Shown here one piece after another: positions 5,545 to 64,000 of a stretch of 64,000 bases of DNA (the stretch's first letter is position 1; each line of letters opens with the position of its first letter). A program made the position numbers and the translations under genes. The notes under the pieces were generated by a model. That model saw only the letters and a list, made by a program, of their open reading frames with translations, was not told where the DNA came from and did not search any database. The DNA is from Thermorudis peleae (GTDB lineage Bacteria > Chloroflexota > Chloroflexia > Thermomicrobiales > Thermomicrobiaceae), in the NCBI RefSeq assembly GCF_000744775.1, contig NZ_JQMP01000003.1, forward strand, positions 1,426,001 to 1,490,000, read 5' to 3'.

Positions 5545-6667
5545 TAGTACGCCTGCCTTGGTGCAACGAGCTGGTGTTGGCCGCTATGCCCGTGGACTGC
5601 TTCATGGCTTGGCATTGTCACTTTCCCCTGATGATCACCTGATCTTGTGGCATGGATGTGGTCTCCAACCAGTTGAACATTTACCGTCACTGCAGGGGTC
5701 AACCGTGCATCGAGTCGCGGTGCCAATCCCCGCGCGTGTGCTTCCTTGGCTCTGGTATCGCGCGAGCTTCCCGCTCAGACTCGAGCAGATCCTCGGCCCA
5801 ATTGACGTGAATCATGGACTAGACTTTGTTGTTGCGCCAAGCCGTGCACCGTCTGTCGTCACGATCCACGATCTCAGCTTTCTCGTTGTCCCACAGTATG
5901 CTCACCCGCGGTTGCGAGCCTATCTTGCTAGCGCCGTGCCGCGTACGTTGCAGCGTGTAGCCGCGGTCATTGCCGTTTCTGAGCAGGTGCGCCGAGAGAT
6001 TGCGGCATTCTATAGCATTCCTGACGATCGAATTGTTGCGATCCCCCACGGCGTTGAACCACGATTCCGCCCTCCTTCTGCTGCCGCAATTGCCGCGACG
6101 CTCAGCCGACACGGCATTGCGCCCCCTTACTTTCTCGCCGTCGGCACGATTGAGCCGCGAAAGAATCATCAGACGCTTCTAGCTGCCTTTGCGGCGGTGG
6201 CTGCCGTTGATCCAGCGGTCCAGCTCGTCGTTGTGGGGCGACCCGGTTGGCTGTGCCGCGGTATTGTTCAGCAACTCCAGGTCTGGGAACGGCGTGGACG
6301 TCTGAAGTGGCTGCAGGCATTGGCCGATGATGATCTGCCAGCACTGTATGCTGGGTGCGTTGCGCTCGTCTACCCTTCATGGTATGAGGGCTTTGGTTTT
6401 CCGGTGCTTGAGGCAATGGCATGTGGTGCTCCAGTCATTGCCAGCGACCTGCCAGTCCTGCGAGACGTCGCGGGTGAAGCGGCGATGTACGTTCCAGCTG
6501 GTGACGCTGAGGCACTTGGTGCAGCAATGCAACGACTGCTCACTGACCAGTCGTTGCGGGAGCAGTTGCGGACGGCTGGTCTGATACGTGCACAGCAGTT
6601 TACGTGGGAAGCGTCGGCAGCCCGGCACCTTGCCGTCTATCGGGCTGTGGCCGAAATGCGCAGGTAG
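5528..6667 (+). CDS. Glycosyltransferase family 4 (GT-B fold)
   Basis: A 379-aa retaining glycosyltransferase of the GT4/glycogen-synthase clan, predicted to add a sugar to a lipid-linked repeat unit at the cytoplasmic face. The C-terminal donor-binding half shows VGTIEPRKNHQTLLAAF (about residue 205) and the E-x7-E region YEGFGFPVLEAMACGAPV (about residue 285). The N-terminus VRIALDSTPALVQRAGVGRY is the expected acceptor-domain glycine loop; this fixes the GTG start at 5528, overlapping the upstream gene, rather than the earlier in-frame ATG inside that gene. Donor and acceptor cannot be told from sequence. Confidence 0.88.
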   Translation: MRIALDSTPALVQRAGVGRYARGLLHGLALSLSPDDHLILWHGCGLQPVEHLPSLQGSTVHRVAVPIPARVLPWLWYRASFPLRLEQILGPIDVNHGLDFVVAPSRAPSVVTIHDLSFLVVPQYAHPRLRAYLASAVPRTLQRVAAVIAVSEQVRREIAAFYSIPDDRIVAIPHGVEPRFRPPSAAAIAATLSRHGIAPPYFLAVGTIEPRKNHQTLLAAFAAVAAVDPAVQLVVVGRPGWLCRGIVQQLQVWERRGRLKWLQALADDDLPALYAGCVALVYPSWYEGFGFPVLEAMACGAPVIASDLPVLRDVAGEAAMYVPAGDAEALGAAMQRLLTDQSLREQLRTAGLIRAQQFTWEASAARHLAVYRAVAEMRR

Positions 6668-9405: not shown

Positions 9406-10087
9406 TGAGGAGTGGACCACCAAATCGGATCGTGGGTTGATCGTCGATGGTCTGCCATTGATTCGGCTGCTGGTACGGTACTTCAAAGTGTGTGCCATCT
9501 CCACCAAGTCCAAGTGTAAGTCGTCGCCAATCAGCTGGAATAACGGTTACCGGATTGATTGCATGGCTCATTGAGCGGTCACGAATCTCAAGGTGCAGAT
9601 GCGAGGCGCTATGACAGGTTGGGGTCGCTGGATCACCGACGAGCCCAATTTGTTGGCCTTTCTGAACGTGCTGTCCAATGGCGAGCGGTGAACGCTCCAG
9701 CAAGTGTCCATAGAGCGAGCGCAGGCCATTCGCGTGCTCGATGACCACATTGTGGGGCGGTGCTCCATAGGGGCCATCAACGGCAACGACGATCCCATCC
9801 GCGATGGCGAGGACGGGCGTGCCGCAGCGGGCTGCAAAATCGACACCAAAATGGATGCCTTGTCCCTGTCGGTACAGGCTATCGCGATTGCGGTATGCCG
9901 TCGTGGTGTTGCCATACCATTGCACAACGAACCATGTCGAGAGGCTCGGCTCACCAGCCAGTGGCAATCCGAAACTTACCGCGGCTCGGGTGCGCTGTGC
10001 GGTGACTCCAGCGCTTGCGGCAATGAAGAGAAAGGCGAGAAGGAGAAGTCGCACCCGACTGGGGCGTCGACGGATCACGTACTTCAT
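9374..10087 (-). CDS. M23 family metallopeptidase (peptidoglycan endopeptidase)
   Basis: A 237-aa secreted M23 (LytM-like) protein expected to cut peptidoglycan cross-bridges or stems. A basic N-terminus and hydrophobic signal segment come first. The catalytic domain shows the zinc motifs HFGVDF and SHLHLEIRD, with the intervening YGHLL; all expected ligands are present, so it looks active. The ATG at 10087 gives a normal signal peptide, whereas the upstream alternative adds 16 residues. It is divergent from holA, with an 83-base gap holding both promoters, and overlaps the downstream lipoprotein gene. Confidence 0.85.
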   Translation of the reverse strand: MKYVIRRRPSRVRLLLLAFLFIAASAGVTAQRTRAAVSFGLPLAGEPSLSTWFVVQWYGNTTTAYRNRDSLYRQGQGIHFGVDFAARCGTPVLAIADGIVVAVDGPYGAPPHNVVIEHANGLRSLYGHLLERSPLAIGQHVQKGQQIGLVGDPATPTCHSASHLHLEIRDRSMSHAINPVTVIPADWRRLTLGLGGDGTHFEVPYQQPNQWQTIDDQPTIRFGGPLLNDWTDAWPPR

Positions 10088-10170
10088 GTTAGCTGTCCGA
10101 TTGATCTCATGCTGTGCTAGAGTCATGATGGCCAAGCGGCTGGGTGATCACGGCGAGTTTGACAACAGGG

Positions 10171-11163
10171 ATGATAACGCTCTTCACCGGTGAGAACCAG
10201 CTTGAACTTCACGAAGCGATCCACGCGCTGCGGCAAGAGCTTGATCCAAGTGAGATCGCGACAAGTGTCTTTGATCCCCCGCATGATCTGCAGGCGATTC
10301 GCGGGGCGATACGTTCCCCCGGCTTCTTTGGCTCCACGCGTCTGGTTATTGTGCGCAGGCTACTCAGCGCTGCCAGCATGGCGCGTCGTTCATCTCTCGA
10401 TGAATCCTTGCTTGACATACTGGCTACTTGTCCCGAGACGACGCGCCTTGTGCTACTCGAACCAGTCACCTTGGACACACGTGTGCTCACTGCGCTGAAG
10501 CAGCGCATCCCGAACCTTGAGGTAACGGTCTTTTCTATTCCGAGGGGACAAGCGCTGCTGCGCTGGGTTGTGCAACGGGCCGAACGCTATCAGGCAACGA
10601 TTTCGCCGCAAGCAGCGGAGCATCTCGTGGCAGCAGTCTGTCCGTGGGGGCTACAGTCTACTGAAGGCAATAGTGGGTTGCAGCCCGATCTCGTTCGCCT
10701 TGACCAGGAACTCGCGAAACTCGCAACGGCTGCGCTTCCCGAGCGGCATATCACCGATGCGCTTGTCCGACAGCTTGTCGCAGCCGTTGAGCCAGAGCAT
10801 GGGTGGGCTTTGCTCAATGCATTCGAGCGACACGATCTTGCTGGAATTATCCGGGAAATTGAGCACGAACTTGACCAGGGAACGCCACCCGAACGGCTTC
10901 TTGCCCAAATCGTCACGCAACTTGAGCTCTATCTGCAAGTACGGGCAGCTGGACAGCACGCTGAGACCGCGTTAGCATCCGCTGGCATTTCTGCCGGGCG
11001 ACTTCGGCATGCTATACCAGCTGCGCGCCGTTTTCCGGACGCGCTCCTCCATTCGCTCCTCGAGCAGCTTCGCCAGCTTGATTTGGCGTCAAAACTTGGC
11101 CCTGTCGATGTTGGCGCAGGACTGCTGAGTATTCTCGGTACAGCGGTATCGAGAACAACATAA
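10171..11163 (+). CDS. holA: DNA polymerase III delta subunit
   Basis: A 330-aa clamp-loader delta subunit, which opens the beta sliding clamp during replication. The N-terminus MITLFTGENQLELHEAI matches the start of the AAA-like domain I; the phrases FFGSTRLVIVRRL and TTRLVLLEP follow the HolA pattern, and the C-terminal helical collar domain covers about residues 210-330. As is normal for delta, no functional P-loop is present. The ATG at 10171 is preferred over a GTG 27 bases upstream because it starts exactly at the conserved strand. Downstream is a hairpin shared with the convergent rpsT gene. Length is typical. Confidence 0.85.
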   Translation: MITLFTGENQLELHEAIHALRQELDPSEIATSVFDPPHDLQAIRGAIRSPGFFGSTRLVIVRRLLSAASMARRSSLDESLLDILATCPETTRLVLLEPVTLDTRVLTALKQRIPNLEVTVFSIPRGQALLRWVVQRAERYQATISPQAAEHLVAAVCPWGLQSTEGNSGLQPDLVRLDQELAKLATAALPERHITDALVRQLVAAVEPEHGWALLNAFERHDLAGIIREIEHELDQGTPPERLLAQIVTQLELYLQVRAAGQHAETALASAGISAGRLRHAIPAARRFPDALLHSLLEQLRQLDLASKLGPVDVGAGLLSILGTAVSRTT

Positions 11164-11191
11164 GGGGTGAAGGCGCGTTGTCTTCACCCCT
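11163..11191. terminator. Bidirectional hairpin between holA and rpsT
   Basis: A perfect 10-bp inverted repeat (AGGGGTGAAG at 11163-11172 pairing with 11182-11191) with a 9-base loop begins at the holA stop codon. It sits between two convergent genes, so it can end transcription from both sides. No long T-run follows. Confidence 0.6.
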
Positions 11192-11213
11192 ACAACGTTG
11201 CCGCTGGTGTCGC

Positions 11214-11516
11214 TTATGCTGATGCGCCGGACTGCTCAGCTTGGAGCTTTGCTCGGACGAGGGCGTTGAAGCGCTTCATCAGTCGTGACTTGCCCCGTGC
11301 TGCAGCATTCTTGTGAATAATTCCCTTGACTGCCGCGCGGTCAAGCATGCTGATCGCATCGCCAACAGCCCGGGCTGCTGCCTCAACATCGCCCGCTTCA
11401 ATCAGCTTCCGGGCCTTCTTGACGAAGGTCCTCGTCGCAGAGCGATACATCCGGTTGCGAATTCGCTTTTTCTCCGCACGTCGCGCAGCTCGTGCAGCCG
11501 ATTTCGTATTCGGCAA
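11214..11516 (-). CDS. rpsT: 30S ribosomal protein S20
   Basis: A 100-aa small-subunit protein that binds 16S rRNA. The sequence has the S20 pattern: N-terminal PNTKSAARAARRAEKKRIRN, the RSATRTFVKKARKLI helix and the C-terminal KNAAARGKSRLMKRFN. The start is inferred to be TTG at 11516, because AGGAGA lies 6-7 bases upstream and there is no in-frame ATG; an ATG at 11523 is out of frame. A weak start codon on a ribosomal protein may serve feedback control, as in other bacteria, but that is inference here. Confidence 0.92.
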   Translation of the reverse strand: MPNTKSAARAARRAEKKRIRNRMYRSATRTFVKKARKLIEAGDVEAAARAVGDAISMLDRAAVKGIIHKNAAARGKSRLMKRFNALVRAKLQAEQSGASA

Positions 11517-11670
11517 GGGTCATCTCCTCTTGTTTGCTCGACGCCACGCCTACACTTGCCGACTGGCTAGTGTAGCAGGTTTACCCGTTTGTGTGCAATA
11601 TCACTGCCTCTATCGCTTCCTTGGCCAACAGAAGCGTTCGGCACGCGGTATCCTCAACGCGATACAAGGG

Positions 11671-13296
11671 ATGGGCGGGATGCGGGCACAGCGGACGGCT
11701 CGGTTCCAGTACCGAGAAGCAGCGGAACGTGTGAGTGTATTGAGTAGCGCAAGCGTCGTCGCGCTTGGCTTCGTCCTCAGCCGCGTGCTCGGCTTAGTAC
11801 GTGAAGTCCTCATCGCAGCACGCTTCGGGACCAGCGCCAATTACGATGCCTACGTTGCAGCGTTTCGACTACCCGATTTTCTCTTCCTGGTCGTCATGAG
11901 CGGCGCGTTTGGCTCAGCCTTCATTCCAGTCTTCGGTGGGCTTCTTGCGCGCGGTGAAACGCAACGGGCTTGGCGCTTAGCGAACACGATCTTAACGTTT
12001 ACCCTGGTCGTTCTTGCCATTACCGGCGTGATTGTCTATCTCGCGGCTGGTCCGCTTATCCGCACAGTCGTTGCGCCTGGGCTCGCGCCGCCGCAGCAAG
12101 CGCTTGCTGTTCACCTCACTCGCCTGTTGCTCCTCTCACCACTTTTGCTTGGGCTCGGCGCTGCCGGAAAGGGGATGCTTGAAGCGCAAGCGCGCTTTGC
12201 CTTACCCGCTTTTGCTCCGGTGCTCTACAACCTCGGCATCATCGTTGGTGCGGCAGTACTTGCACCATTTTTCGGGATCTATGGCTTGGCCTATGGCGTT
12301 GTCCTCGGCGCATTGGGACACATGGGCATTCAATTTCTCGCTCTCTATGCGAACGGATGGCGGTTTATCCCGACATGGGATCTTCATGACCCACAGGTGG
12401 GCGAAGTAGCCCGTCTAATGGGCCCACGCGTGATCGGCCAGGCGGCATTCCAGGTCAATATGATTGTGATGACGAATTTTGCATCGCGTCTTGGGCCGCA
12501 GCACGTGTCATCATTGAACTATGCCTATCAACTCTTTATGCTGCCGCATGGCGTATTAGCGCTGAGCCTCTCAACAGTCATTTTCCCCTTGATGGCACAG
12601 GATGTTGCGCGAGGGTTGCTGGATCGGGCCCGGGCAATGCTGAATCAATCGCTTGATGCCCTGCTGCTCTTCACGCTTCCCGCGAGTGCGGGGCTCTTGC
12701 TATTCCGGACGAGTATTGTGCAAACACTTTTCCAGTTCGGCGCGTTCTCGTCGACCTCGACCACGCTCGTCGCCGAAGCACTTGCCTACATGGCGCCGGG
12801 ACTGTTGGCCTTCGCGGTCGTTGAGGCTGTGACCAGAGCGTTCTATGCGCTACACGATACCCGTACTCCGGTCACTGTTGCGGTTGTTGCCGTTGCCGTC
12901 AATGCCCTGCTCTGCGCGCTGTTTGCCTCTCCCCTTGGCAATCGTGGAATCGCCCTCGCCTTGACGTTGAGCACGACGCTGGAAATGGCAATCCTGTTGC
13001 TGATCCTGCGACAGCGGCTGCATGGTTTCGGCGCTGGCCTTTGGTCGTCCTTTGGCAAAATGCTCCTCGCCACCGCGGTTATGACCATTATCGGGTGGCA
13101 ATTCGCTGGCCCGCTTACTCAAGTGACTAACCCGACGAATGGACGCTCACTCATGCAGCCGCTTATCCTGCTCTATACCTGCTTTGCGCTTGCAGCTGCT
13201 TACTTTGTCACGGTTGCCCTTCTGCGCGTGCCAGCAGCATGGCGCATGCTTGAACAAGCACAGCGCATTGCAGCGCGGCGACGACGCTACCATTAA
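11671..13296 (+). CDS. murJ: Lipid II flippase MurJ
   Basis: A 541-aa MOP-superfamily membrane protein that flips lipid-linked peptidoglycan precursor. The family signature [20 protein letters not shown] lies about 35 residues from the start, followed by [14 protein letters not shown]. About fourteen hydrophobic segments and an arginine-rich tail follow. Possible starts are ATG 11671 and ATG 11680. The frame is open much further upstream, but that part is antisense to rpsT and is not protein-like. The lepA promoter region follows directly. Confidence 0.9.
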
Positions 13297-15181: not shown

Positions 15182-16581
15182 GCATCACCGTTGTTGGGCT
15201 TGGGCCAGGGCAAGTAGAACTGCTCACAGCTGAAGCACGCGCAATCCTTGAGCATGCTGCTGGCCACATCTTTGTCCGCACCAAACAGCATCCGGTTGTC
15301 GCTGCCTTGTCGCATCTCGCCTGGGAAAGCTTTGATCCACTCTACGAGCGGGCAGCAAGCTTTGAAGAAGTCTACGAAGGAATTGTCACAACGCTCATCG
15401 AAGCCGCCCGTCATGGACCGGTCGTCTATGCTGTTCCAGGGCATCCGCTCGTTGGCGAAGCAACCGTCCGCAAGCTTCTTGCCCAAGCGCGTGCATCAGC
15501 GATGTCCTGCAGCGTCGTCCCTGGATTAAGCTTCGTCGACGTCGTCCTGCCGCTGCTCGAGTGCGATGCACTGGCCGAGAACCTTCAGATCGTGGATGCA
15601 TTCGACCTCGCTGCTTGCCTCGATGGTCAGCCCTTCTCCGGAGGCCGTTGGCCCATTTCACCCCTTCGGCCGGCGCTCATTGGGCAGGTTAGTGACCGGT
15701 TTCTCGCGTCGAAAGTCAAGCTGGCCTTGATGCGACTCTACCCCGATGATATCGAGATTACGGTTGTCAGCAGGGCTGGAATGGCTGATCCACTGGTCCG
15801 ACGCCTCCCGCTCTATGAGCTTGATCACCACGAGATAGATGCATTGACGGCAGTGTTCATCCCTGCACAGTCTGCTGAACAGAGCCGTGTCGCTGAAGGA
15901 CTTCAGCAGATCGTCGCACGACTGCGTGCTCCTGGAGGCTGTCCCTGGGATCGTCAACAAACGCCGCAGAGCTTGACACGGCATATCCTTGAGGAAGCCT
16001 ACGAGCTCGTTGAAGCGATCGAGCAGAACGACACTGAGGCAATCTGCGAAGAACTTGGCGACTTTGTCTTGCAGGCCTTCATGCAAGCGCAACTCGCAGA
16101 AGAACAAGACGCCTTCACCCTTGAGGATGTTTTCAGCGGCGTTATTCACAAACTCGTGCGCCGGCATCCACACGTCTTTGGCTCTGTCCGTGCCGAAACT
16201 GCTGAGGTTGTGCTGGCAAACTGGGAGCAGATCAAGGCAGCCGAGCGAGCGGAACGCAAGGGGACAGCGGAGAACGGCACGCACGATGTGTCGCCATTTC
16301 CAGCGCTTGCCCGAGCACAGCGCTTATTCCGTCAAGCAGCCCGGCGCAAACAGGCTGTGCCACTACCGCCTCACGCCGCAGCGTCGCTTGAAAACCTCCG
16401 ACAGGAGGCCCCAATACCGGAAGACATGGTGGTGGCACGGCTCGTGGCACTTTGTGCGCTGGCAAGCGAGCAGGGCATTGATCTTGAACGGGCGCTGTTT
16501 CGCTGGACACGCCAGGTCGAACATGCCCAGGACACCACTACGATGAATGCGGAGGCGATCGAAGAAGAGAACGGCGCGTAA
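15178..16581 (+). CDS. Tetrapyrrole methylase-like / MazG pyrophosphohydrolase fusion (YabN type)
   Basis: A 467-aa two-domain protein. Residues 1 to about 215 form an SAM-dependent tetrapyrrole (corrin/porphyrin) methylase-like domain beginning [15 protein letters not shown]. Residues from about 240 form a MazG-type all-alpha NTP pyrophosphohydrolase with [18 protein letters not shown] and the metal motif [11 protein letters not shown] followed by EELGD. This arrangement is that of Bacillus YabN; the MazG part probably hydrolyses non-canonical or excess NTPs, and the role of the methylase part is unclear. The GTG at 15178 overlaps the lepA stop and has a G-rich ribosome-binding site. Confidence 0.88.
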
Positions 16582-53229: not shown

Positions 53230-53326
53230 GAGGGCGGATCGGGCCCGGTGGCCCGCACGGTCTTCAAAATCGCTGGGCGTCGGTCGTCCCGGCGCTGGTG
53301 GGTTCGACTCCCATCCGCCCTCGCCA
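53230..53326 (+). tRNA. selC: tRNA-Sec (UCA), selenocysteine tRNA
   Basis: All bacterial tRNA-Sec hallmarks are seen: an 8-bp acceptor stem GAGGGCGG/CCGCCCTC, a 6-bp D-stem CGGGCC/GGCCCG with 4-base loop CGGT, anticodon loop CTTCAAA (UCA at 53264-53266), a 7-bp variable arm GCGTCGG/CCGGCGC, T-arm GTGGG-TTCGACT-CCCAT, discriminator G and encoded CCA (53324-53326). The anticodon stem is weak: four inner pairs including a G-U, then mismatches. It implies selenocysteine decoding in this organism, and it is the integration site of the island that follows. Confidence 0.93.
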
Positions 53327-53351
53327 GCGTCCGTACGCACCAACTCGATGA

Positions 53352-54569
53352 TCAGCCATCGACGTCCTCCGGGGCGGTGTGCGCGGAGTTAGCAATTGAG
53401 TTAGCAACCAGCGCGCCGAGCCGGTCGGCGGCTTCTCGCGCGAGTCCCGGCGTGACATGCGAGTAGGTATCCAGCGTGAGCTGGATCGTGCTGTGGCCCA
53501 GGAGACTGGCCACCACCTTCGGATGCACCCCGTCGGTCAAGAGCAGCGTTGCCGTGGTGTGCCGCAGATCGTGGAAGCGCCGGTGTGACAGGCCCGCGCG
53601 CGCGAGCAGCTGCTGGTAGTCGTGGGTGACGTCGGCTGGATCGAGCGGCGTGCCAACACGCGTGGTGAAGACCCAGTCGCCGTCGGCCCAGGCCGGGCCA
53701 GCCGCCAGCCGCTGCTCGAGTTGCCGCCGCCGCTGGAGCCGCAGGGCCTCGAGCGCCTGCGGTGGCAGGGGAATGCTGCGCCGTGACGTCGCCGTCTTCG
53801 GCTCAACGACGACCAGGCCACGGCCGGTAACGCGCTGGATGGCGCGGACGACGCGCACCTCGCCTCGTTCCCAGTCAATGTCACCCCACTGCAGGCCGAG
53901 GAGTTCCCCCAGCCGCATCCCGGTGAACACCGCGAGCGTCACCAGCGGGCCGAGTGGATCGTCGGCGCAGGCGGTGAGCAGCGCCCGGACCTCGTCGAGC
54001 GTGAGCGGCTGAATCGCCGGCCGCGGGGCATGCGGCGGGTCAACCAGGTCACACGGGTTGCGGCCGAGCAGGCCCCATTTCACGGCGTCCTCAAAGGCGC
54101 GGTGCAGGAGCCGGTGGGCGTGGACGACAGAACGCGGGGCGAGGCCGCGCGCGAGCAGCTGGCTGTAGGCGGCCTGGAGCACGGCCGGCGTCACCTTCTC
54201 CAGGGTGAGATGGCCGAGCACCGGCACGATCCGGCTGCGGATCACCATGCGGTAGCTCTCCACGGTGCGCGGCCGCAAGCTCGGCCGGCGTCCCTCGAGC
54301 CACTGGGTGAGGAACTGCGCGAGTGTCGGCGGCCGGCCATGGGCCAGCACCCCCCGCTCGTGTTCTTCCCGCAGCTTCTGCAGGAGCTTGAGCGCCTCGC
54401 GCTGCGTGTCGGCCACGCGCGAGACTCGCCGCAGCCGGCCCCGGACTGGATCGGGCACGGAGAGCTGCGCCACCCACTTCCCACGGCGCTGGTCGAAGAA
54501 GACGGTGCCTTCGCCGCTCCCCCGGCGGCGGCTCTTGCGCTTGCTGTGGTCTTCGGGTACGGTTGTCAT
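53352..54569 (-). CDS. Tyrosine-type site-specific integrase
   Basis: A 405-aa phage-type integrase. It has an N-terminal AP2-like arm-binding domain (GTVFFDQRRGKWVAQLSVPD), a SAM-like core-binding domain (FLTQWLEGRRPSLRPRTVES), and a catalytic domain with Arg in TGMRLGELLGLQW, His-x-x-Arg in FHDLRHTTATLLL, the later His in LLGHSTIQLTLDTYSH and Tyr in DTYSH. All catalytic residues are present, so it is probably active. The ATG at 54569 has AAAGGAG 8 bases upstream. The gene end is 26 bases from the selC CCA, as expected for an element using the tRNA 3' end as attB. Confidence 0.93.
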   Translation of the reverse strand: MTTVPEDHSKRKSRRRGSGEGTVFFDQRRGKWVAQLSVPDPVRGRLRRVSRVADTQREALKLLQKLREEHERGVLAHGRPPTLAQFLTQWLEGRRPSLRPRTVESYRMVIRSRIVPVLGHLTLEKVTPAVLQAAYSQLLARGLAPRSVVHAHRLLHRAFEDAVKWGLLGRNPCDLVDPPHAPRPAIQPLTLDEVRALLTACADDPLGPLVTLAVFTGMRLGELLGLQWGDIDWERGEVRVVRAIQRVTGRGLVVVEPKTATSRRSIPLPPQALEALRLQRRRQLEQRLAAGPAWADGDWVFTTRVGTPLDPADVTHDYQQLLARAGLSHRRFHDLRHTTATLLLTDGVHPKVVASLLGHSTIQLTLDTYSHVTPGLAREAADRLGALVANSIANSAHTAPEDVDG

Positions 54570-54629
54570 TGCACACACTCCTTTCTGCGGAGCGCCCGGT
54601 TCCCCAGTGGGAGCCGGGTACCGTCCCGT

Positions 54630-55016
54630 TTAGCGCACCGCCAGGAGCGCGTGGAGGCGCGCCCCCTGCGGGGTCTCGGCGTCTTCCTCAACCACAGCCG
54701 TTCCCTCACCTGGGTGGGCCGGCACGATCTCGAGCGCAACGTGCAACCCCAGCGTCTCGGCCAACCGAACGAGCGTGGCGATCTCCGGCACATGCTCGCC
54801 CGACTCCCAGCGGGCCACCGTGGGCTGGCTCACCCCGAGCCGGCGTGCCAGTTCCGTCTGGGAGAGACCGAGTTCGGCCCGGCGCCGCACCAGCCAGAGC
54901 GCAAATGCCCGCGCCAGAGCGGTGGCCTGCCAGCGCTGCCGGACTGCCGTATCCGTCAGCGCCCGCGCGAGCACTGCCGTCGCCGGCTCGAGTCGGCGTT
55001 CAGGTTCTGTCGTCAT
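54630..55016 (-). CDS. XRE-family antitoxin (HigA-like)
   Basis: A 128-aa protein with a clear helix-turn-helix of the Cro/C1 type: LGLSQTELARRLGVSQPTVA, followed by RWESGEHVPEIATLVRLAE. The tail after residue 95 is disordered. Its ATG overlaps the upstream toxin stop (ATGA), giving the toxin-first order of higBA systems. Expected to neutralise the toxin and repress the operon through the palindromic site upstream. Confidence 0.82.
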   Translation of the reverse strand: MTTEPERRLEPATAVLARALTDTAVRQRWQATALARAFALWLVRRRAELGLSQTELARRLGVSQPTVARWESGEHVPEIATLVRLAETLGLHVALEIVPAHPGEGTAVVEEDAETPQGARLHALLAVR

Positions 55017-55351
55017 GCGGTTCCTCCTTCCCGGAGCGCTGCCGCGCGTTCCTGCGCCCGCTGGACGGCGGCACGGAACCCCGGCGGGTCGTGCCGGGCC
55101 TCGGGGGCAATCGTCAGGATGACGAAGCGGCCACCGATCCGCGTGTCCAGCGCCCGCCAGGGACTGTGTCCCGAGCGCGGCCGGAGTTCGCGCAGGTTGG
55201 CCATGCCACGGACCGTGCTCGTGTGCGGGTACGGGAGTCGGGGGCCGAGCGCCATGAGTTTTTCGACCGCGTGCAAGAGCGCGACCCGCTCGTCAGGCGG
55301 GAGCAGGGCGAGTTCCGCTTCCGCGACAGCCACGAAGCTAACCCTCCACAT
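55013..55351 (-). CDS. RelE/HigB-superfamily toxin (phage-derived Gp49-like)
   Basis: A 112-aa protein starting MWRVSFVAVAEAELALLPPD with a RelE-fold pattern: helix VALLHAVEKLMALGPRLPYPH, then MANLRELRPRSGHSPWRALDT, a strand with GGRFVILTIAPEAR, and a C-terminal helix AAVQRAQERAAAL. The LRELR and WRALD blocks match Gp49-like/HigB toxins, which cleave ribosome-bound mRNA. The ATG at 55351 gives the family N-terminus; 16 extra upstream codons run through the operator palindrome and are not chosen. Confidence 0.8.
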   Translation of the reverse strand: MWRVSFVAVAEAELALLPPDERVALLHAVEKLMALGPRLPYPHTSTVRGMANLRELRPRSGHSPWRALDTRIGGRFVILTIAPEARHDPPGFRAAVQRAQERAAALREGGTA

Positions 55352-55355
55352 GGAG

Positions 55356-55373
55356 TATAGTATGCATGCTATA
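55356..55373. promoter_or_regulatory. 18-bp palindromic operator of the toxin-antitoxin operon
   Basis: TATAGTATGCATGCTATA is a near-perfect palindrome with one mismatched pair, located 5 bases upstream of the toxin start. It is AT-rich in a GC-rich setting and probably overlaps the promoter; this is the usual position for the autoregulatory antitoxin-binding site. Confidence 0.65.
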
Positions 55374-55405
55374 CCAGTATGAACCAGTGCGTGGTTCATG
55401 ACTGG
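55374..55405. terminator. 13-bp hairpin between XRE gene and toxin-antitoxin operon
   Basis: Positions 55374-55386 pair with 55392-55405 (one bulged G at 55400) around the 5-base loop GTGCG. It covers the stop codon of the upstream XRE gene and abuts the operator palindrome. It could be a terminator or a second regulator-binding site. Confidence 0.55.
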
Positions 55406-55641
55406 GACGCTGCATCAGCATCCAAGCCAACCGCGGCGCGGTACTCGGCGATCTGGGTGACCTTGATCGCCAACGCCTCGGCGAGCTTCCGCCAGGTTTC
55501 GCCACGTGGGAGCTGTCGTCTTCCATGTTCGATCGCCGTGATTGTCGCATGCGACACGCCAGCTCGACGCGCAAGCTCCCGGATTCCATAGCCGCGCTCG
55601 ATCCTCCACCGTCGGAGCGGCCAGATCCGTTCCTCGTTCAT
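55396..55641 (-). CDS. Small XRE-family transcriptional regulator
   Basis: An 81-aa DNA-binding protein with one helix-turn-helix domain: YGIRELARRAGVSHATITAI, then EHGRRQLPRGETWRKLAEAL. AAGGAGG lies 5 bases before the ATG at 55641. There is no partner domain, so it is probably a repressor belonging to the island. It is co-directional with the toxin-antitoxin operon downstream, separated from it by the hairpin. Confidence 0.8.
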   Translation of the reverse strand: MNEERIWPLRRWRIERGYGIRELARRAGVSHATITAIEHGRRQLPRGETWRKLAEALAIKVTQIAEYRAAVGLDADAASQS

Positions 55642-56140
55642 CGCCACCTCCTTGTCCAGAGCTATCGTACCAGATCTGCCACGAAACGAACCACTTTGAT
55701 CCGATCCTTAACAAGACATACCAGACTTGGTCACTATGGTCAGAATCGGTTGGTAGTGGGTCGAGAGGAATGGAAAAGGGAGTTGACCAACGGCACAGTG
55801 AACGATCAAAAGCGAAGCCGAGCAGTGCGCCGCTCTGTTCGACAAGCGGCTGGCGAAGGCTAAGAAACCGGTAACCCAGAACACGGTCTGTGCACGGTCT
55901 CCGGTCAGCCGGATACTCGCAGCATGGTCAACGGCGCTGGCATGCTCGAGTTCGTCAACGCCATGACCGGTACGTGCTCGCGATCCGACCGCCTCTGCCG
56001 CAACCGCCTGGGCCTGCCCTGTAAGCACAGCCGGAGGGACACACTAATCAGCAGCCTAAGCGCGACTGGCGCTGATCAGTCGTGCTTCAGCAAGAACGAG
56101 AGTGGAGCACAGGCCGCACTCCCTGTGATCCTGCTCACCC
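55642..56140. other. Degenerate region without an intact gene
   Basis: About 500 bases upstream of the XRE gene. Its promoter should lie in the first 60 bases. Beyond that I see only short frames; one plus-strand stretch near 55,815-55,880 reads like a protein fragment (AALFDKRLAKAKKPVTQNTV) but is soon closed by stops. This looks like decayed DNA of unknown origin. Confidence 0.45.
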
Positions 56141-56712: not shown

Positions 56713-57495
56713 ATGGCTGAAGGGGTTACTAGAGATAATAACGTGTTAATCGAAATGCGAGGCATCTGTAAGCGTTTCGGAGCGGTTACTGCTCTTGATC
56801 ATGTCAATTTAACGTTACGCTCTGGAGAAGTACTCGGCCTTGTCGGTGATAACGGAGCGGGGAAATCAACATTAATGAAAATTTTAAGCGGTGCATATCA
56901 GCCAGACGCCGGCCAGATACTGTGGCAAGGAAAACCTGTCCGGTTCGCGAACCCGCAGGACGCACGCAATATAGGCATTGAAATGGTATACCAAGATTTA
57001 GGATTAGCCGATAATTTATCGGTGGTCGAAAATATTTTTCTTGGACGTGAAATTACCAAAACGTATATAAAAGGCATTATTCGCTTCGTTGATTTCCGCG
57101 CCATGGCAGCTAAGACCCACGCTCATCTTAACCAATTACAAATTAATATTCCTGACATCTGGCAAAGAATAGAGCTACTTTCAGGAGGGCAAAGACAGGC
57201 AGTAGCCATTGCACGAGCTACGGTCTTTAGGGCACGTGTCGTTATTATGGATGAGCCAACAGCTGCCCTTGCAATTAAGGAGGTCCACAAAGTGCTCAAC
57301 TTAGTCCGATCTCTCAAAGATCATGGAGTTGCTGTGATTCTCATCAGCCACCGAATCGACGACATTTTTCAAGTATGCGACCGAGTAATGGCTCTATATC
57401 AGGGGCGCAACTTTGCTGAATCTCCAATTGAATCAGTGCAACCTAATGATGTTATTGGATGGATTATGGGGTTAAGCCATGCAAAGCCAGTATGA
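56713..57495 (+). CDS. Sugar/polyol ABC transporter ATP-binding protein (single NBD)
   Basis: A 260-aa ATPase of the CUT2 group. Walker A is GDNGAGKSTLMK, the signature LLSGGQRQAVAIAR and Walker B VVIMDEPTAAL. Unlike RbsA-type proteins (about 500 aa with two domains) it has one nucleotide-binding domain, as in FrcA, so it should work as a homodimer. It is AT-rich compared with the chromosome to the left. Its end overlaps the permease gene by 17 bases. Inositol, fructose or ribose are possible substrates; the context favours inositol. Confidence 0.92.
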   Translation: MAEGVTRDNNVLIEMRGICKRFGAVTALDHVNLTLRSGEVLGLVGDNGAGKSTLMKILSGAYQPDAGQILWQGKPVRFANPQDARNIGIEMVYQDLGLADNLSVVENIFLGREITKTYIKGIIRFVDFRAMAAKTHAHLNQLQINIPDIWQRIELLSGGQRQAVAIARATVFRARVVIMDEPTAALAIKEVHKVLNLVRSLKDHGVAVILISHRIDDIFQVCDRVMALYQGRNFAESPIESVQPNDVIGWIMGLSHAKPV

Positions 57496-58531
57496 ACCTG
57501 AAGAGTATAGCATGCCCCCGTCAAAACTTAACATAGATTCTCCGCTCCCATGGCGGATTCGGGCTATTGACTTAGCCGAGCGCTTTGGCGTCGCTGCTAT
57601 CGCCCTTCTGATGGCACTCTTCCTTGCTTTGACTCGGCCTGAGACATTTCCAACTTCTGGGAATCTAGCAAATATCGCTCGCCAAACACCCTATATCGCT
57701 GTCTTAGCGCTTGGTGAATTCTTCACTATCCTTACCGCGGGCATCGATCTCTCTATCAGCTCGGTTATGGCGTTGAGCATGGTTACTCTGGCGTTAGCTG
57801 TTCACGCTGGTGTCCCTGTAATCATATGCGTATTCACCCCGCTCTTAATTGGATGTTTATTTGGTCTTCTCAATGGTATTGGATTAACCCGTTTGCGTCT
57901 TCCGCACGCATTTATTATGACACTAGGAACACAATATATTGCGCGGGGGTTGACTAACCTTATATCAGGTGGTGTGCCGATCTCTGGCTTGCCTCCATCT
58001 ATACGCTGGCTTGGTGCGAGCGATATTGAACTTAGCAAAAATCTAGCTATCCCTTGGGCTTTCATTGCTGTCTTGCTACTTTATAGTCTGGTAGGGGTGT
58101 TCTTACACCGAACTGTAACCGGGCGCCGCATCTATGCTGTTGGAGGAAATCCCAAAGCCGCTCGCTATGCCGGTATTGATGTTGATCGTATCCTCGTTAT
58201 TGTCTATACCCTCTCTGGTACGCTCGCTGGATTAGCTGGTCTTATTTTAGCCGGTCGCACTGGTTCAGGGTATCCAAATGCTGGATTAGGTGACGAACTC
58301 TATGCTATTGCTGCTGTCATTATTGGAGGAACTAGCTTTTTCGGAGGTCGCGGCAACCTTCTAGGCGTATTTGCAGGGGTCATTATTATCGGTCTATTGC
58401 GAAATGGACTAAATCTCTTTAATGTTAGTGTTTTCTGGCAACAAGTTTTAATAGGAGTCATAGTGATTACGGTCGTCTATGGAGATGTTTTGCGCCAACA
58501 AATCGCACAACGTTTCCAGCGAGGACAATAA
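57479..58531 (+). CDS. Sugar/polyol ABC transporter permease (RbsC/FrcC type)
   Basis: A 350-aa permease with eight to ten hydrophobic segments and the CUT2 signatures LAVLALGEFFTILTAGIDLS-like stretch near residue 75 and AIAAVIIGGTSFFGGRG near 275. A short polar N-terminus of about 25 residues precedes the first segment. Starts at ATG 57479 (overlapping the ATPase gene) or ATG 57512 are possible. It is AT-rich like its neighbours and belongs to the same transcription unit. Confidence 0.9.
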   Translation: MQSQYEPEEYSMPPSKLNIDSPLPWRIRAIDLAERFGVAAIALLMALFLALTRPETFPTSGNLANIARQTPYIAVLALGEFFTILTAGIDLSISSVMALSMVTLALAVHAGVPVIICVFTPLLIGCLFGLLNGIGLTRLRLPHAFIMTLGTQYIARGLTNLISGGVPISGLPPSIRWLGASDIELSKNLAIPWAFIAVLLLYSLVGVFLHRTVTGRRIYAVGGNPKAARYAGIDVDRILVIVYTLSGTLAGLAGLILAGRTGSGYPNAGLGDELYAIAAVIIGGTSFFGGRGNLLGVFAGVIIIGLLRNGLNLFNVSVFWQQVLIGVIVITVVYGDVLRQQIAQRFQRGQ

Positions 58532-58603
58532 AAGATGATCTAGGCACATAGATCAATGGCGATGGAGGTGTACGGTGTTAAGCAGTAGAGAGGAGGGACT
58601 GCC

Positions 58604-59671
58604 ATGCAGCAAAGCCTAAAGTCACTTATCTTGGGTACGGCCTTAGCTATCCTTGTTGTAGCCTGTGGCTCTCAAGGGGGGGCGACTCCCACAACGGCCG
58701 GGGGAGTCAGTGGTAATACCCCGACTGCCGCTCTAACTCCTACTCAGGGGACTGTTCAAACCGCTTCGCCAACGCCGGCTCCACAAAACTCTCCTACGGC
58801 GAGCAGCACTACAGTTGGCAAAGTTAAAATTCTGCTAAGCATGAAGGGTCCGGGCGGCGGCAATCCATTCTGGGCTGCAGTGGAACAAGGAGCGCGTGAC
58901 GCAGCAAAAACAAATGGAGTTGATCTTGTCGTTCTCGCTCCGCCTAACGAAACTGATGTTCAGACCCAAATCAGTCAAATTGAGGACCAAATCACTGCTG
59001 GAGTTCAAGCGATTGTTGTCGCGCCGACTGATCCACAAGCGTTGAATCCCACCCTCGATAAGGCTAAGGCGAAGGGAATTCCTGTCCTCTTCGTTGATAC
59101 AGATGCTCCATGGCCGGGAAAGATTACCTTTATCGGAACGGACAACAAAGCAGGTGGCCAATTAGCTGGCCAATATATCTGTCAACATCTGTCGAAATCT
59201 AAAAAAGTTGCTATTATAACTGGCGTTATGACGCAACAAACACATATTGATCGCGATAGTGGGGCTAAAGCCGCATTGCAAGCCTGTGGAGCGAAAATTG
59301 TTGCAGAGTTGCCAGCGGATTCAGATCGAGCCAAAGGGCAACAAGTTATGGAAGATATTCTCACGTCCAATCCAGATTTAGAAGCTGTCTTCGCTACGAA
59401 CGATCTTATGGCATTAGGAGCAGCCGAGGCCGCCAAAGCGGCTGGTAAACTACCGGGCATTATTATTGTTGGCTTTGACGCGAATCCTGATGCTGCCAAG
59501 AGCATCCTAGCTGGCGAGATGAGTGCTTCTATCGCACAGAATCCCTACAAGATGGGACAGCTCGGGATTGAAAATGCACTTAAGGCTATTAAGGGCCAGC
59601 CAGTACCACCACGCATCGATACTGGTACCACCTTGGTAACGAAAGACAACGCGCAGCAGTACATCAAATAA
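58604..59671 (+). CDS. Sugar/polyol ABC transporter substrate-binding lipoprotein (RbsB type)
   Basis: A 355-aa Periplasmic_binding_4 protein. The signal peptide ends at a lipobox-like AILVVAC, followed by a Thr/Pro-rich linker to about residue 70. The binding domain begins KVKILLSMKGPGGGNPFW and includes IVVAPTDPQALNP, FVDTDAPWPGKITFIGTDN and VGFDANPDAAKSILAGEMSA. The GAGGAGGGA site precedes the ATG by 7 bases. A small hairpin (58537-58554) lies in the gap after the permease and may set relative expression. The ligand is inferred to be inositol or a related polyol from downstream enzymes. Confidence 0.9.
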   Translation: MQQSLKSLILGTALAILVVACGSQGGATPTTAGGVSGNTPTAALTPTQGTVQTASPTPAPQNSPTASSTTVGKVKILLSMKGPGGGNPFWAAVEQGARDAAKTNGVDLVVLAPPNETDVQTQISQIEDQITAGVQAIVVAPTDPQALNPTLDKAKAKGIPVLFVDTDAPWPGKITFIGTDNKAGGQLAGQYICQHLSKSKKVAIITGVMTQQTHIDRDSGAKAALQACGAKIVAELPADSDRAKGQQVMEDILTSNPDLEAVFATNDLMALGAAEAAKAAGKLPGIIIVGFDANPDAAKSILAGEMSASIAQNPYKMGQLGIENALKAIKGQPVPPRIDTGTTLVTKDNAQQYIK

Positions 59672-59696
59672 AAGCCAATATTTGGAGGAATACCAC

Positions 59697-60734
59697 ATGC
59701 TTCGAATTGGTGTTATTGGTGTTGGAGCAATCGGACAGGGTCATGTTCGACGCCTACATCATCTTGCTCCAGACTTAGTTAAGGTAACAGGTGTAGTTGA
59801 TCTAAGCTCTGATCGCGTTGCGGCACTAACTCGCGAAATACCATCCCTGAGAGCCTTTGAGAGTAGCAATGAGCTTATTGATTCACCAGAGATTGATGCT
59901 GTGGTTATCGCTAGCTGGGGAGCTACCCATGCAGACTTAGCGGTGAGGGCAATTAGCAGGGGGAAACCAGTATTCTGTGAGAAGCCTCTGGCCCCTACCG
60001 TTGCAGACTGCCAACGTATCGTCGAAGCAGAACTCAAGGCAGATCGTCGTCTCGTATGGGTTGGATTCAATCGCAGATACGACAAAGCTTATTTGGAACT
60101 CAAGCAGGCCCTTGATGCACATATAGTGGGAAAACCCTTATTGATCCACTGCAGACATCGCAATCCTGGTGTGCCTTCTCACTATACTGGCGATATGCCT
60201 ATCACCGATACCGCCGTGCATGAGTTCGACCTAGTGCGCTGGTTGTTTGAGTCAGAAGTCAGCGAAGTTAAAGTTTTTCTACCGCCTCGATCGTCCCGAG
60301 CAAAACAGAACCTTGTTCATGATCCAGTGATAATTATTCTTAAGTTATCAAGTGGTGTAGTTGCAGAAATTGAGATCTTTGTTAATTCCTACGGCTACGA
60401 CATTTCTTGCGAAGTTGTAGGAGAAGAAGGTTCGCTTCTCCTAAGAGAGAATCCAAATCTTACCACTAGTAAAGAGGGAAAGGTGACCGGCGCGATTGCT
60501 CAAGGATATGAAGAGCGTTTTGCCGCGTCTTATGAACTTGAGTTGCGTAAGTGGATCGAAAGCCTGCTTACCGGACAACACGAGGGGCCAACTGCATGGG
60601 ATGGCTACATGGCAACACTAGTTGCCGATTATTGCTTAAAATCAATGCAATCAGATGATATGTTAACGATAAAGATCCCCGAGTGTCCTAAGCTATACCG
60701 AAAAGACTTTGAACTAAGGGGTGCAGCGCGATGA
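59697..60734 (+). CDS. Gfo/Idh/MocA family dehydrogenase (inositol 2-dehydrogenase-like)
   Basis: A 345-aa NAD(P)-dependent oxidoreductase. The Rossmann motif [16 protein letters not shown] is followed by the family EKP element in CEKPLAP and by [19 protein letters not shown], which contains the active-site His/Asp typical of inositol dehydrogenases. The ATG at 59697 has GGAGG 9 bases upstream. It would oxidise myo-inositol to scyllo-inosose, the first step before IolE/IolD chemistry. A sugar 3-dehydrogenase acting with ThuA is the alternative. The stop overlaps thuA (ATGA). Confidence 0.85.
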
Positions 60735-61483
60735 CGGTGAAGCCGGTGCGGGTGACGATCTGGAACGAATACCGGCACGAGCGACAGGATCCCGCGGTGC
60801 GTGCCCACTATCCGGCAGGCATCCACGCGGTGCTGGCCGCAGCCCTGGAGGCGGCTGGCTGCACGGTGCGCGTGGCCACGCTGGACGAGCCGGAGCACGG
60901 GCTGGACGCGGCCACGCTGGCGGCGACCGACGTGCTGGTCTGGTGGGGCCACCTGGCACACGAGGCCGTCGCCGACACCGTCGTCGACCGGGTGCAGCAG
61001 CGTGTGCTCGATGGCATGGGACTGGTGGTGCTGCACTCCGCCCACGAGTCGAAGATCTTCCGGCGGCTGATGGGCACGACCTGCAAGGTGATGTGGCGCG
61101 AGCGTGGGGAACGGGAGCGGGTGTGGGTGGTGCAGCCGGCCCACCCGGTCGCGGCTGGGTTGCCGGAATACTTCGAGCTGCCGCAGTCGGAGATGTATGG
61201 CGAGCCGACGGACATCCCGGCGCCCGACGAGCTCGTCTTCATCAGCTGGTTCCAGGGGGGCGAAGTCTTTCGCAGCGGTGGCGCCTACACCCGCGGCCGG
61301 GGCCGGATCTTCTACTTCAGCCCGGGCCATGAGACCTTCCCGATCTACCATCACCCGCTCGTCCAGCGGGTCATCGTCAACGCGGTGCGCTGGGCAGCCC
61401 CCAACGACTTCTCGGGGGCGCCGGTGGCCGGTATTCGCCAGGGCGGCGCGCACCGGCCGGACCCGCTGGAGCCGCTGGACTAA
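60731..61483 (+). CDS. thuA: ThuA-domain protein
   Basis: A 250-aa protein of the ThuA (trehalose utilisation) family, a class I glutamine amidotransferase-like fold without the catalytic Cys. Motifs include [45 protein letters not shown] and [17 protein letters not shown]. ThuA-like proteins act with ThuB-type Idh dehydrogenases in 3-keto-disaccharide metabolism, so it may extend the dehydrogenase's substrate range. Base composition jumps here to very GC-rich although the gene overlaps the AT-rich dehydrogenase gene by 4 bases. Confidence 0.88.
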
Positions 61484-61501
61484 GGGGAGAGGAGGCCGAC
61501 G

Positions 61502-63382
61502 ATGACGACGCGCCGGCTGACGGTGGCGCAGGCCCTGGTGCACTTCCTGGCAGCGCAGTATAGCGAGCGCGATGGCGTGCGCCAGCGATTGATCCGCGGG
61601 GTCTGGGCCATTTTCGGGCATGGCAACGTAGCCGGGCTGGGGCAGGCGCTGGCCGAATACGGGACGAGGCTTGGGTTGCCGACCTATCGCCCGCAGCACG
61701 AGCAAGCGATGGTGCACGCCGCGGCCGCCTTTGCCCGCCACACTGAACGGCTGAGTACGTTTGCCTGCACCGCCTCGATCGGGCCAGGCTCGACGAACAT
61801 GCTCACCGCAGCCGCGGGGGCAACGATCAACCGGCTGCCGGTGCTGCTCTTGCCAGCCGATGCCTTCGCTAACCGGGTACCTGATCCTGTGCTTCAGCAA
61901 CTCGAGCACCCACTGGAGCGCGACGTCAGCGTCAACGATGCGTTTCGCCCGCTCTCGCGCTTCTTTGCCCGGATCACCCGGCCGGAGCAGATGCTGGACG
62001 TCCTGCCGGAGGCGATGCGGGTGCTGACGGATCCGGCCGAGACCGGGGCGGTGACGGTGGCCTTGCCGCAGGATGTGCAGGCCGAAGCCTATGACTGGCC
62101 AGTCGCCTTCCTGGCCGAGCGGGTCTGGCCGATCCGCCGGCCGGTGCCGGATCCGGCAGCGGTCGCCGTGGCGGCACAGCTGCTGCGGCAGGCGGAGCGG
62201 CCGCTGGTGATTGTGGGCGGAGGAGCACGCTACAGTGCGGCGGGGGAGGCCCTGGCCGCGCTGGCCAGCCGCTTTGGCCTGCCGGTTGCCGAGACACAGG
62301 CGGGCAAAGGGGTGTTGAGCTGGCAGCATCCGTGGAACGTGGGGCCGATCGGGGTCAACGGCGGGCTGGCGGCTAACCGGCTGGCACGGCAGGCTGACCT
62401 CATTCTGGCGGTCGGCACACGGCTGACCGATTTCACCACGGCGTCCAAGACGGCCTTCCAGCATCCTGCGGTGCGGGTCATCGGGCTGAACATTAACGCG
62501 GCCGATGCGGCCAAACTGGGCGGGGTGGCGCTGGTGGGCGATGCCCGGCAGGGGATAGAGGCCTTGGCGGCGGCGCTCAGCGACTGGCCGGGCACGGCTG
62601 CGCCCTACCGGGCCGAGGTGGCGCAGTTGCGGACCGAGTGGGACGCGTGGGTCGCGGCGTGGCGCACGCCGCCCGCAGCAGCCGGGCCACGACTCCGCCA
62701 GGCGGCAGTGCTGGGAGTGCTCAACACGGTCGTCGGCGGGCGGGCGACGGTGATCAATGCGGCGGGGAGCATGCCGGGGGACCTGGTGCGGCTCTGGCGT
62801 GCGGAGGAGCCCGCCGCCTACCACGTCGAGTATGGCTACTCGTGCATGGGCTATGAGCTGCCGGCAGGGATTGGGGTGAAGCTGGCCGAGCCAGACCGGG
62901 ACGTGGTGGTGCTGGTGGGCGATGGGAGCTACCTCATGGCCAGCGCGGAGTTAGTCACCGCCGTGGCCGAGGGGCTTGACCTCACCGTGGTGCTGGTGGA
63001 CAATGGCGGGTTTGGCTCGATCCACGGGTTACAGCAGGCGGTGGGCTCGCCGCCGTTCGGGAACTTATTGCGGGCGCGGAATCCGGCGACCGGGCAACTG
63101 GATGGGCCGCCGATCGTCGTTGACTACGTCCAGCATGCGGCGGCGATGGGAGCACGGGCCTGGGCTGTGACGAGCTACGAGGAACTGGCGGCGCGGCTAG
63201 CGGAGGCACAGCGGCTGCCGGGGGTGAAGGTGCTGGTTGTGCCGGTTGATCCAGACGACCGGCTGCCGGGCTGTGAGAGCTGGTGGGACGTGCCGGTTGC
63301 CGCAGTCTCGGAGCAGCCGGCGGTGCAGGCCGCCCGCCAGGCCTATGAGCAGGCCCGGCAGCAGCAACGGTGGTTCGGCTAA
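61502..63382 (+). CDS. iolD: 3D-(3,5/4)-trihydroxycyclohexane-1,2-dione hydrolase
   Basis: A 626-aa ThDP-dependent enzyme that hydrolyses the C-C ring bond of trihydroxycyclohexane-1,2-dione in inositol breakdown, giving 5-deoxy-glucuronate. It has the catalytic Glu in RPQHEQAMVHAAAAFARHT, STFACTASIGPGSTNM, and the ThDP/Mg motif GDGSYLMASAELVTAVAEG to VLVDNGGFGSIHG. Its length agrees with Bacillus IolD. A GGAGAGGAGG site precedes the ATG. It is very GC-rich, like thuA, and contrasts with genes on both sides. This is the best evidence that the operon handles inositols. Confidence 0.92.
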   Translation: MTTRRLTVAQALVHFLAAQYSERDGVRQRLIRGVWAIFGHGNVAGLGQALAEYGTRLGLPTYRPQHEQAMVHAAAAFARHTERLSTFACTASIGPGSTNMLTAAAGATINRLPVLLLPADAFANRVPDPVLQQLEHPLERDVSVNDAFRPLSRFFARITRPEQMLDVLPEAMRVLTDPAETGAVTVALPQDVQAEAYDWPVAFLAERVWPIRRPVPDPAAVAVAAQLLRQAERPLVIVGGGARYSAAGEALAALASRFGLPVAETQAGKGVLSWQHPWNVGPIGVNGGLAANRLARQADLILAVGTRLTDFTTASKTAFQHPAVRVIGLNINAADAAKLGGVALVGDARQGIEALAAALSDWPGTAAPYRAEVAQLRTEWDAWVAAWRTPPAAAGPRLRQAAVLGVLNTVVGGRATVINAAGSMPGDLVRLWRAEEPAAYHVEYGYSCMGYELPAGIGVKLAEPDRDVVVLVGDGSYLMASAELVTAVAEGLDLTVVLVDNGGFGSIHGLQQAVGSPPFGNLLRARNPATGQLDGPPIVVDYVQHAAAMGARAWAVTSYEELAARLAEAQRLPGVKVLVVPVDPDDRLPGCESWWDVPVAAVSEQPAVQAARQAYEQARQQQRWFG

Positions 63383-63398: not shown

Positions 63399-64000
63399 AT
63401 GGAGCGGCTGCGCTTCGGCAATGCACCCTGCTCGTGGGGCATTATCGAAGGGATATCGGGGGATCGACTCCCGTATTACCAGATGCTCGATGAACTTGTC
63501 GAGGCTGGTTATGAGGGAACAGAACTGGGAGATTACGGCTATCTCCCGACTGACCCAGAGGTTCTTAGAGCAGAGCTGGACCGACGCGGATTAACGCTCC
63601 TGGGTGCTTTTGTCATGGTAGCCTTGACTAATCCTCATGCTCATCGTGAGGGGATACAACAAGCTGTACGCACCGCCACACTTCTTGCACAGGTTGCTGA
63701 TATCGGCGACCCACACTGGCGACCACTGCTGATTCTATCTGACGCACACAGCTTTGCACCGGTTCGCCTTACCTACGCTGGCCGAATACGCCCAGAGATG
63801 AGCCTCACGAAAGAGGAATGGAATATTGTCACCCAAGGAATCAAACAGATTGTCCAGGCGGTTCGAGAGACCACTGGCATTGAAACTGTATTTCATCCCC
63901 ACTGTGCCAGCTACGTTGAGACCCCGGACGAGATTGCGCAAGTGCTTGGGCGTACAGAAATTGGGCTTGTGTTTGACACGGGACATTACTTCTATGGCAG
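63399..64000 (+). CDS. TIM-barrel inosose dehydratase/isomerase-like protein (IolE/IolI type), 3' end outside window
   Basis: The frame is open from ATG 63399 to the window end (200 codons), with GAGGAG 8 bases upstream. The product starts MERLRFGNAPCSWG and contains VEAGYEGTELGDYGYLPTDP, GAFVMVALTNP and TVFHPHCASYVETPDE, and runs to LGLVFDTGHYFYG-like sequence (IGLVFDTGHYFYG). The NAPCSWG start and the Glu/His/Asp metal positions are typical of IolE 2-keto-myo-inositol dehydratases and IolI isomerases. It supplies the step between the dehydrogenase and IolD. Composition is again moderate, unlike iolD. Confidence 0.85.
   Translation, partial: MERLRFGNAPCSWGIIEGISGDRLPYYQMLDELVEAGYEGTELGDYGYLPTDPEVLRAELDRRGLTLLGAFVMVALTNPHAHREGIQQAVRTATLLAQVADIGDPHWRPLLILSDAHSFAPVRLTYAGRIRPEMSLTKEEWNIVTQGIKQIVQAVRETTGIETVFHPHCASYVETPDEIAQVLGRTEIGLVFDTGHYFYG

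Follow-up and report, generated by a model that had tools for sequence, protein, structure and literature searches.

In genome G000, the gene for the selenocysteine tRNA (selC) is met almost end to end by a tyrosine recombinase gene reading towards it, which raises the question of whether this tRNA gene marks one end of an integrated element and, if so, how far the element extends, what it carries and whether it could still move. The locus lies within the window, i.e., the whole 64,000-nucleotide stretch analysed here (G000:C3:1426001-1490000). A previous, sequence-only reading took the arrangement for a selC-integrated island with metabolic cargo in a Chloroflexota host. The adjacency and the interpretation both hold: the locus is a genuine selC island of an ordinary kind, delimited in full, and the host is a member of the Chloroflexota, in the family that contains Thermomicrobium.

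Ends and content of the island

The tRNA-Sec gene (anticodon TCA, encoded CCA) was identified both by ARAGORN and by Rfam (RF01852, 73.3 bits against a gathering score of 47). A SelB protein scoring above the curated cut-off is encoded elsewhere in G000, so that selC is probably in use. The two genes are convergent, with 25 bases between the tRNA and the stop codon of the integrase gene (int), which has its ATG start at 54569 and a GTG further upstream, at 54578. The catalytic R-K-H-R-H-Y set of the integrase (Int) is complete (R222, K261, H336, R339, H362, Y372), as had been read from the sequence. The features at this end are:

53230..53326, plus strand: selC, tRNA-Sec, the target gene, intact at the left end of the island (ARAGORN and RF01852)
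53262..53331, plus strand: attL core, 70 bp, beginning in the anticodon loop and ending 5 bp beyond the CCA, identical to the attR core
53352..54578, minus strand: tyrosine recombinase (integrase), 408 aa (PF00589, 1.2e-28; PF14659; PHROG phrog_1, 1.4e-81)

A search to the right of position 64,000 for a direct repeat of the tRNA 3' end, proposed along with the original claim, succeeded. With selC and its flank as the query, G000 yielded one full match and one perfect 70-bp match on contig C4 (attR core, G000:C4:7219-7288, 70/70 identity with the attL core), 31.7 kb away and beyond the window. A perfect repeat of this length is not due to chance. Given that contigs C3, C4 and C2 overlap, the two copies bound one island in direct orientation, 31,668 bp from core to core. 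Together with the matching arm-type sites at both ends (see below), this repeat supports a 31.7-kb integrative element in selC with the 70-bp direct repeats as its ends, a reading to which we assign a probability of about 0.93.

From int towards attR, the following genes are encoded:

54630..55016, minus strand: HTH_3 antitoxin- or regulator-like protein (Pfam, 1.1e-16)
55013..55399, minus strand: Gp49-like, toxin-like protein (PF05973, 3.9e-9), overlapping the HTH gene by 4 bp
55396..55647, minus strand: second HTH_3 regulator (Pfam), with a 56% homologue in the HRbin27 element
56713..59671, plus strand: sugar (inositol-type) ABC transporter, i.e., ATPase, permease and substrate-binding protein (NCBIfam)
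59682..63382, plus strand: iolG-like dehydrogenase, ThuA-domain protein and iolD (Pfam, NCBIfam)
63399..64000, plus strand: iolE, running on past the window end
L006 (C3:1489001 onward), after iolE: iolC, iolG, iolB and a DeoR-type regulator, the last named by reading the protein sequence
L006, after the DeoR-type regulator: DUF499 protein, DUF3780 protein, DUF1156 methyltransferase and PLD-SNF2 helicase (Pfam, PADLOC)
L007 (C4): VRR-NUC protein, AAA protein, Prim-Pol, HTH_17 protein and 418-aa protein, then attR at C4:7219-7288

The myo-inositol genes between the cores, among them an IolD that scores 879 bits against TIGR04377 (above the cut-off), bear out the metabolic cargo. The first HTH_3 gene and the Gp49-like gene probably form a toxin-antitoxin pair. 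The four-gene defence cluster matches a single PADLOC set (PDLC02189-02193) and has the complete composition of the Type-2 BR group of DUF499-centred BREX-related defence systems (PMC12839542), that is, a DUF499 ATPase with an Fn3-type match, DUF3780, a DUF1156 N6-methyltransferase and a PLD(HKD)-helicase in one cluster. No difference from that group was seen, and the island copy is an ordinary member carried as cargo. At the right end, the AAA protein bears a Walker A motif, and the HTH_17 protein (80 aa), whose gene is conserved in three elements, is a candidate excisionase on the strength of a family-level match. The 418-aa protein has a relative (39% identity) in the corresponding position of the Thermomicrobium sp. 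CFH 73360 (G013) selC element and was found only in G000 and G013 among 150 genomes searched. Neither capsid, tail nor terminase genes, the marks of a prophage, were detected among the island proteins scanned; nor were relaxase or type IV secretion domains, the marks of an integrative conjugative element, in a Pfam scan of the island proteins that covered the small ORFs in part. No IMG/VR contig carries a close Int (best full-length match, 28%), and no close viral relative was found there for Int, the 418-aa end protein or the G013 Prim-Pol.

The base composition of the island is a mosaic, with a GC content of ~71% at int, ~48% at the ABC transporter genes (46-50%, vs 58% for the window) and ~70% at iolD. 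This mosaic, and the existence of related elements that lack inositol and defence cargo (the 9.2-kb element of G013), would also fit an integrase that is a remnant beside inositol and defence genes that came separately, in which case the 31.7-kb span would be a composite no longer mobile as a unit. We regard such an origin as unlikely, given that the attL and attR cores are identical at all 70 positions, Int is intact and both arm-type sites are kept, and that mosaic cargo is no bar to movement as a unit.

The attL and attR cores sit on different contigs, and the joining of the island rests on contig overlap. The last ~2.85 kb of C3 are the start of C4 in the same orientation, and C2, a 13-kb contig of G000 with two more copies of the 70-bp repeat, runs from the C3-tail sequence into C4, past attR, and then folds back on itself. 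Separate contigs for the two ends, and a fold-back contig that repeats the C4 end, could also be produced if the element were present twice, the copy at selC on C3 lacking an assembled right end and the right end on C4 belonging to a copy elsewhere; the direct repeats would then not be the two ends of one island. This arrangement is very improbable: a full selC and a left end are each found just once in G000, and the overlaps differ throughout by single-base indels, mostly in homopolymers, with no substitutions, which points to long-read errors and not to diverged copies. The C2 contig itself (L008), an inverted duplicate of the attR region, is probably an assembly or read artefact. Neither an excised circle (attP) nor a reconstituted attB was seen in the G000 assembly.

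Arm-type sites and proposed mechanism of integration

Further evidence for a single island in selC comes from short paired repeats that lie inside both ends:

53387..53408, plus strand: candidate left arm-type site, AGTTAGCAATTGAGTTAGCAAC, two TTAGCAA units 12 bp apart, within the 3' end of int
C4:7093-7112: candidate right arm-type site, AGTCAGCAATCCAGTTAGCA, the counterpart of the left site

The arm-type sequence beside attL, within the int 3' end, is AGTTAGCAATTGAGTTAGCAA and that beside attR is AGTCAGCAATCCAGTTAGCAA; both pairs start about 125 bp from the start of the respective core, on the element side. Three copies of GTTAGCAA are present in 36 kb, always at the two island ends. Furthermore, the G013 selC element has TGCTAGCAAT..TGCTAGCA at both ends, and the arm pair of the HRbin27 element is AGTTAGCAATCGAGTTAGCA. 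In 61 whole genomes, the consensus of the pair motif matches only attL and attR of the present island, attL and attR of the G013 element and attL of the HRbin27 element (genomes G000, G013 and G019), and the reversed consensus, used as a control, gives one match in all; because the consensus was built from the very sites matched, the informative part of this result is the absence of matches elsewhere. In G002, independently, a pair of this type lies 125 bp left of a displaced tRNA-Leu(CAA) fragment. Judging from this placement and recurrence, the paired TTAGCAA-type repeats are probably the arm sites of Int. Genomes do contain tRNA fragments, but the notion that the tRNA and integrase genes are neighbours by coincidence, the repeat being an old duplicated tRNA fragment, is already contradicted by the arm-type repeats common to both ends in the right geometry and by the recurrence of the arrangement in G013 and at other tRNAs.

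Integrases of the wider family (tRNA 3' flanks in L057, L058, L059, L062 and L068) have a tandem pair of 11-12 bp of their own near the int 3' end, different in sequence in each case, which suggests that the arm sites change along with the integrase. In addition, GTCCGTACGC is present in exactly two copies in the element, one by the attL core (window 53329-53338) and one in the promoter region of the HTH_17 gene (L007, about 5790-5820). Conceivably this is a site for a regulator or excisionase, although two copies are too thin a basis for such a claim.

We propose that integration of the 31.7-kb element would proceed as follows. The attP site would carry the tRNA-Sec sequence between the anticodon loop and the CCA (the final ~65 bp), and Int, presumably bound to the arm repeats, would recombine it with the identical chromosomal sequence. 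This exchange would restore a whole selC next to int and leave the displaced 3' half at the opposite end. The HTH_17 protein would act as the excisionase, and the Prim-Pol and AAA genes could serve to copy the excised circle. As the island contains no recognised capsid or conjugation gene, its movement between cells would depend on another element. With this cargo, the host should be able to use myo-inositol and to resist phages, the latter through the Type-2 BREX-related methylation/helicase system. Given its intact parts, the element may still be mobile, as had been surmised.

The integrase clade and its choice of tRNA

The five closest integrases, two of which (G002 and G005) are represented in the tree by partial sequences, form one clade with 100/100 support. 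The adjacent tRNAs are Sec (G000), Tyr (HRbin27), Leu (G002), Sec (G013) and Tyr (G005), and these targets are interspersed on the tree. In all five tRNAs, the anticodon arm matches CGGTCTNNAAAAYCG, a motif that occurs at 2-6 places per genome in seven genomes, nearly all of them tRNAs or tRNA fragments (Leu, Trp, Sec, Tyr, Cys and Ser). An anticodon-arm core common to the targets, as opposed to tRNA identity, would explain the target switches, and we hypothesize from these five integrases that the core determines target choice. Tentatively, and at slightly less than even odds, the history of the clade could be extended further: it would recognise the anticodon arm CGGTCTNNAAAAYCG, would probably be confined to the Thermomicrobium family and would have moved repeatedly among tRNA-Sec, tRNA-Tyr and tRNA-Leu with its arm sites retained, with a common replication module, sometimes in the form of a fused Prim-Pol/family A polymerase, and variable cargo.

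The HRbin27 element (L010/L100) resembles the selC island in its Int (86% identical), near-identical arm pair and HTH_17 gene but differs in that it is located at tRNA-Tyr, encodes a fused Prim-Pol/PolA protein and has an unassembled far end. The fused protein is a single 1587-aa ORF (L100:1770-6533, plus strand) composed of Prim-Pol, a middle region with a weak DUF927 match, a 3'-5' exonuclease and a family A DNA polymerase; its counterpart in G013 is split into two adjacent genes (L074:7190-9769 and 9773-11923; 65% and 61% identical). A pattern search of the Prim-Pol/polymerase protein gave no match to the classical Walker A motif. The 9.2-kb selC element of G013 (L011) shares with the island a 61% identical Int, the core start, the kind of arm pair, the HTH_17 gene and the 418-aa-type protein at the far end. 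Unlike the island, it lacks the inositol and defence cargo, carries Prim-Pol together with a family A DNA polymerase, and has attL and attR cores that differ at 4 of 62 positions.

Two further loci involve other tRNAs. In G000, a second tRNA-integrated element (L163, G000:C4:405000-424000) is bounded by a direct repeat of 169 bp (99.4%; local 5652-5820 and 15198-15366) that takes in the whole tRNA-Ser(GCT) together with the 3' portion of tRNA-Ser(TGA); the copies lie about 9.5 kb from each other and flank a 37% identical integrase. In G002, there are two displaced 3' halves of tRNA-Leu(CAA) (C23:517-573 and C8:5652-5708), one of which adjoins a DUF499 relative, suggesting that this tRNA gene is a second hotspot.

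selC as an insertion hotspot

A selC match was detected in 31 of 41 genomes, several of which have extra 3'-half fragments. The gene order on the left flank (TPP-enzyme gene, 88-aa gene, selC) is conserved in several other genera, indicating that this flank is old chromosome. Elements in selC are present in at least four Thermomicrobium genomes: selC is accompanied by a displaced fragment in G013 (9.2 kb away), G005 (55.8 kb) and G009 (54.9 kb), and a displaced fragment is also found in G018. The comparison with an empty site, proposed together with the island, applies to the related Thermomicrobium elements only. For these, there is an empty selC in G020, with both flanks joined and no integrase; for the island itself, the right-flank (dpp) genes lie away from selC in the relatives examined. 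The selC integrases of G005 and G009 are distant (about 31% identity) and read away from selC. Thus, insertion into selC has recurred in Thermomicrobiales, where integrases of two unrelated lineages use this gene as a hotspot.

In G005 and G009, the core of the displaced fragment is identical to that of their own selC; only in G013 do the two differ, and there the displaced fragment has the allele of the genus-mates G005, G009, G018 and G020. By sequence comparison, it is as if the island had supplied a new 3' half to the G013 selC, the alternative being later drift.

The selC island resembles the anticodon-centred class (A) of tRNA-gene genomic islands defined by Islander (PMC4383910): both have a tyrosine integrase, a tDNA rebuilt at one end with the displaced 3' fragment at the other, and a crossover region that starts in the anticodon loop. 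The differences are the Chloroflexota host, the selC tDNA and the cargo of inositol catabolism and BREX-related genes. The selC islands of enterobacteria, including LEE (PMC6174562), are alike in the target gene and in the position of the integrase at the tRNA 3' end but are unrelated in cargo and host. No paper on selC integration in Chloroflexota was found in the partial literature collection consulted.

The island described here is a fully delimited selC island outside the enterobacteria, and it provides a candidate mobile carrier for both a Type-2 BREX-related defence system and an inositol pathway. Given that sister integrases 86% identical to each other are found at tRNA-Sec and tRNA-Tyr, respectively, with near-identical arm sites and with anticodon arms that match one motif, this integrase clade provides a testable case of tRNA target change.
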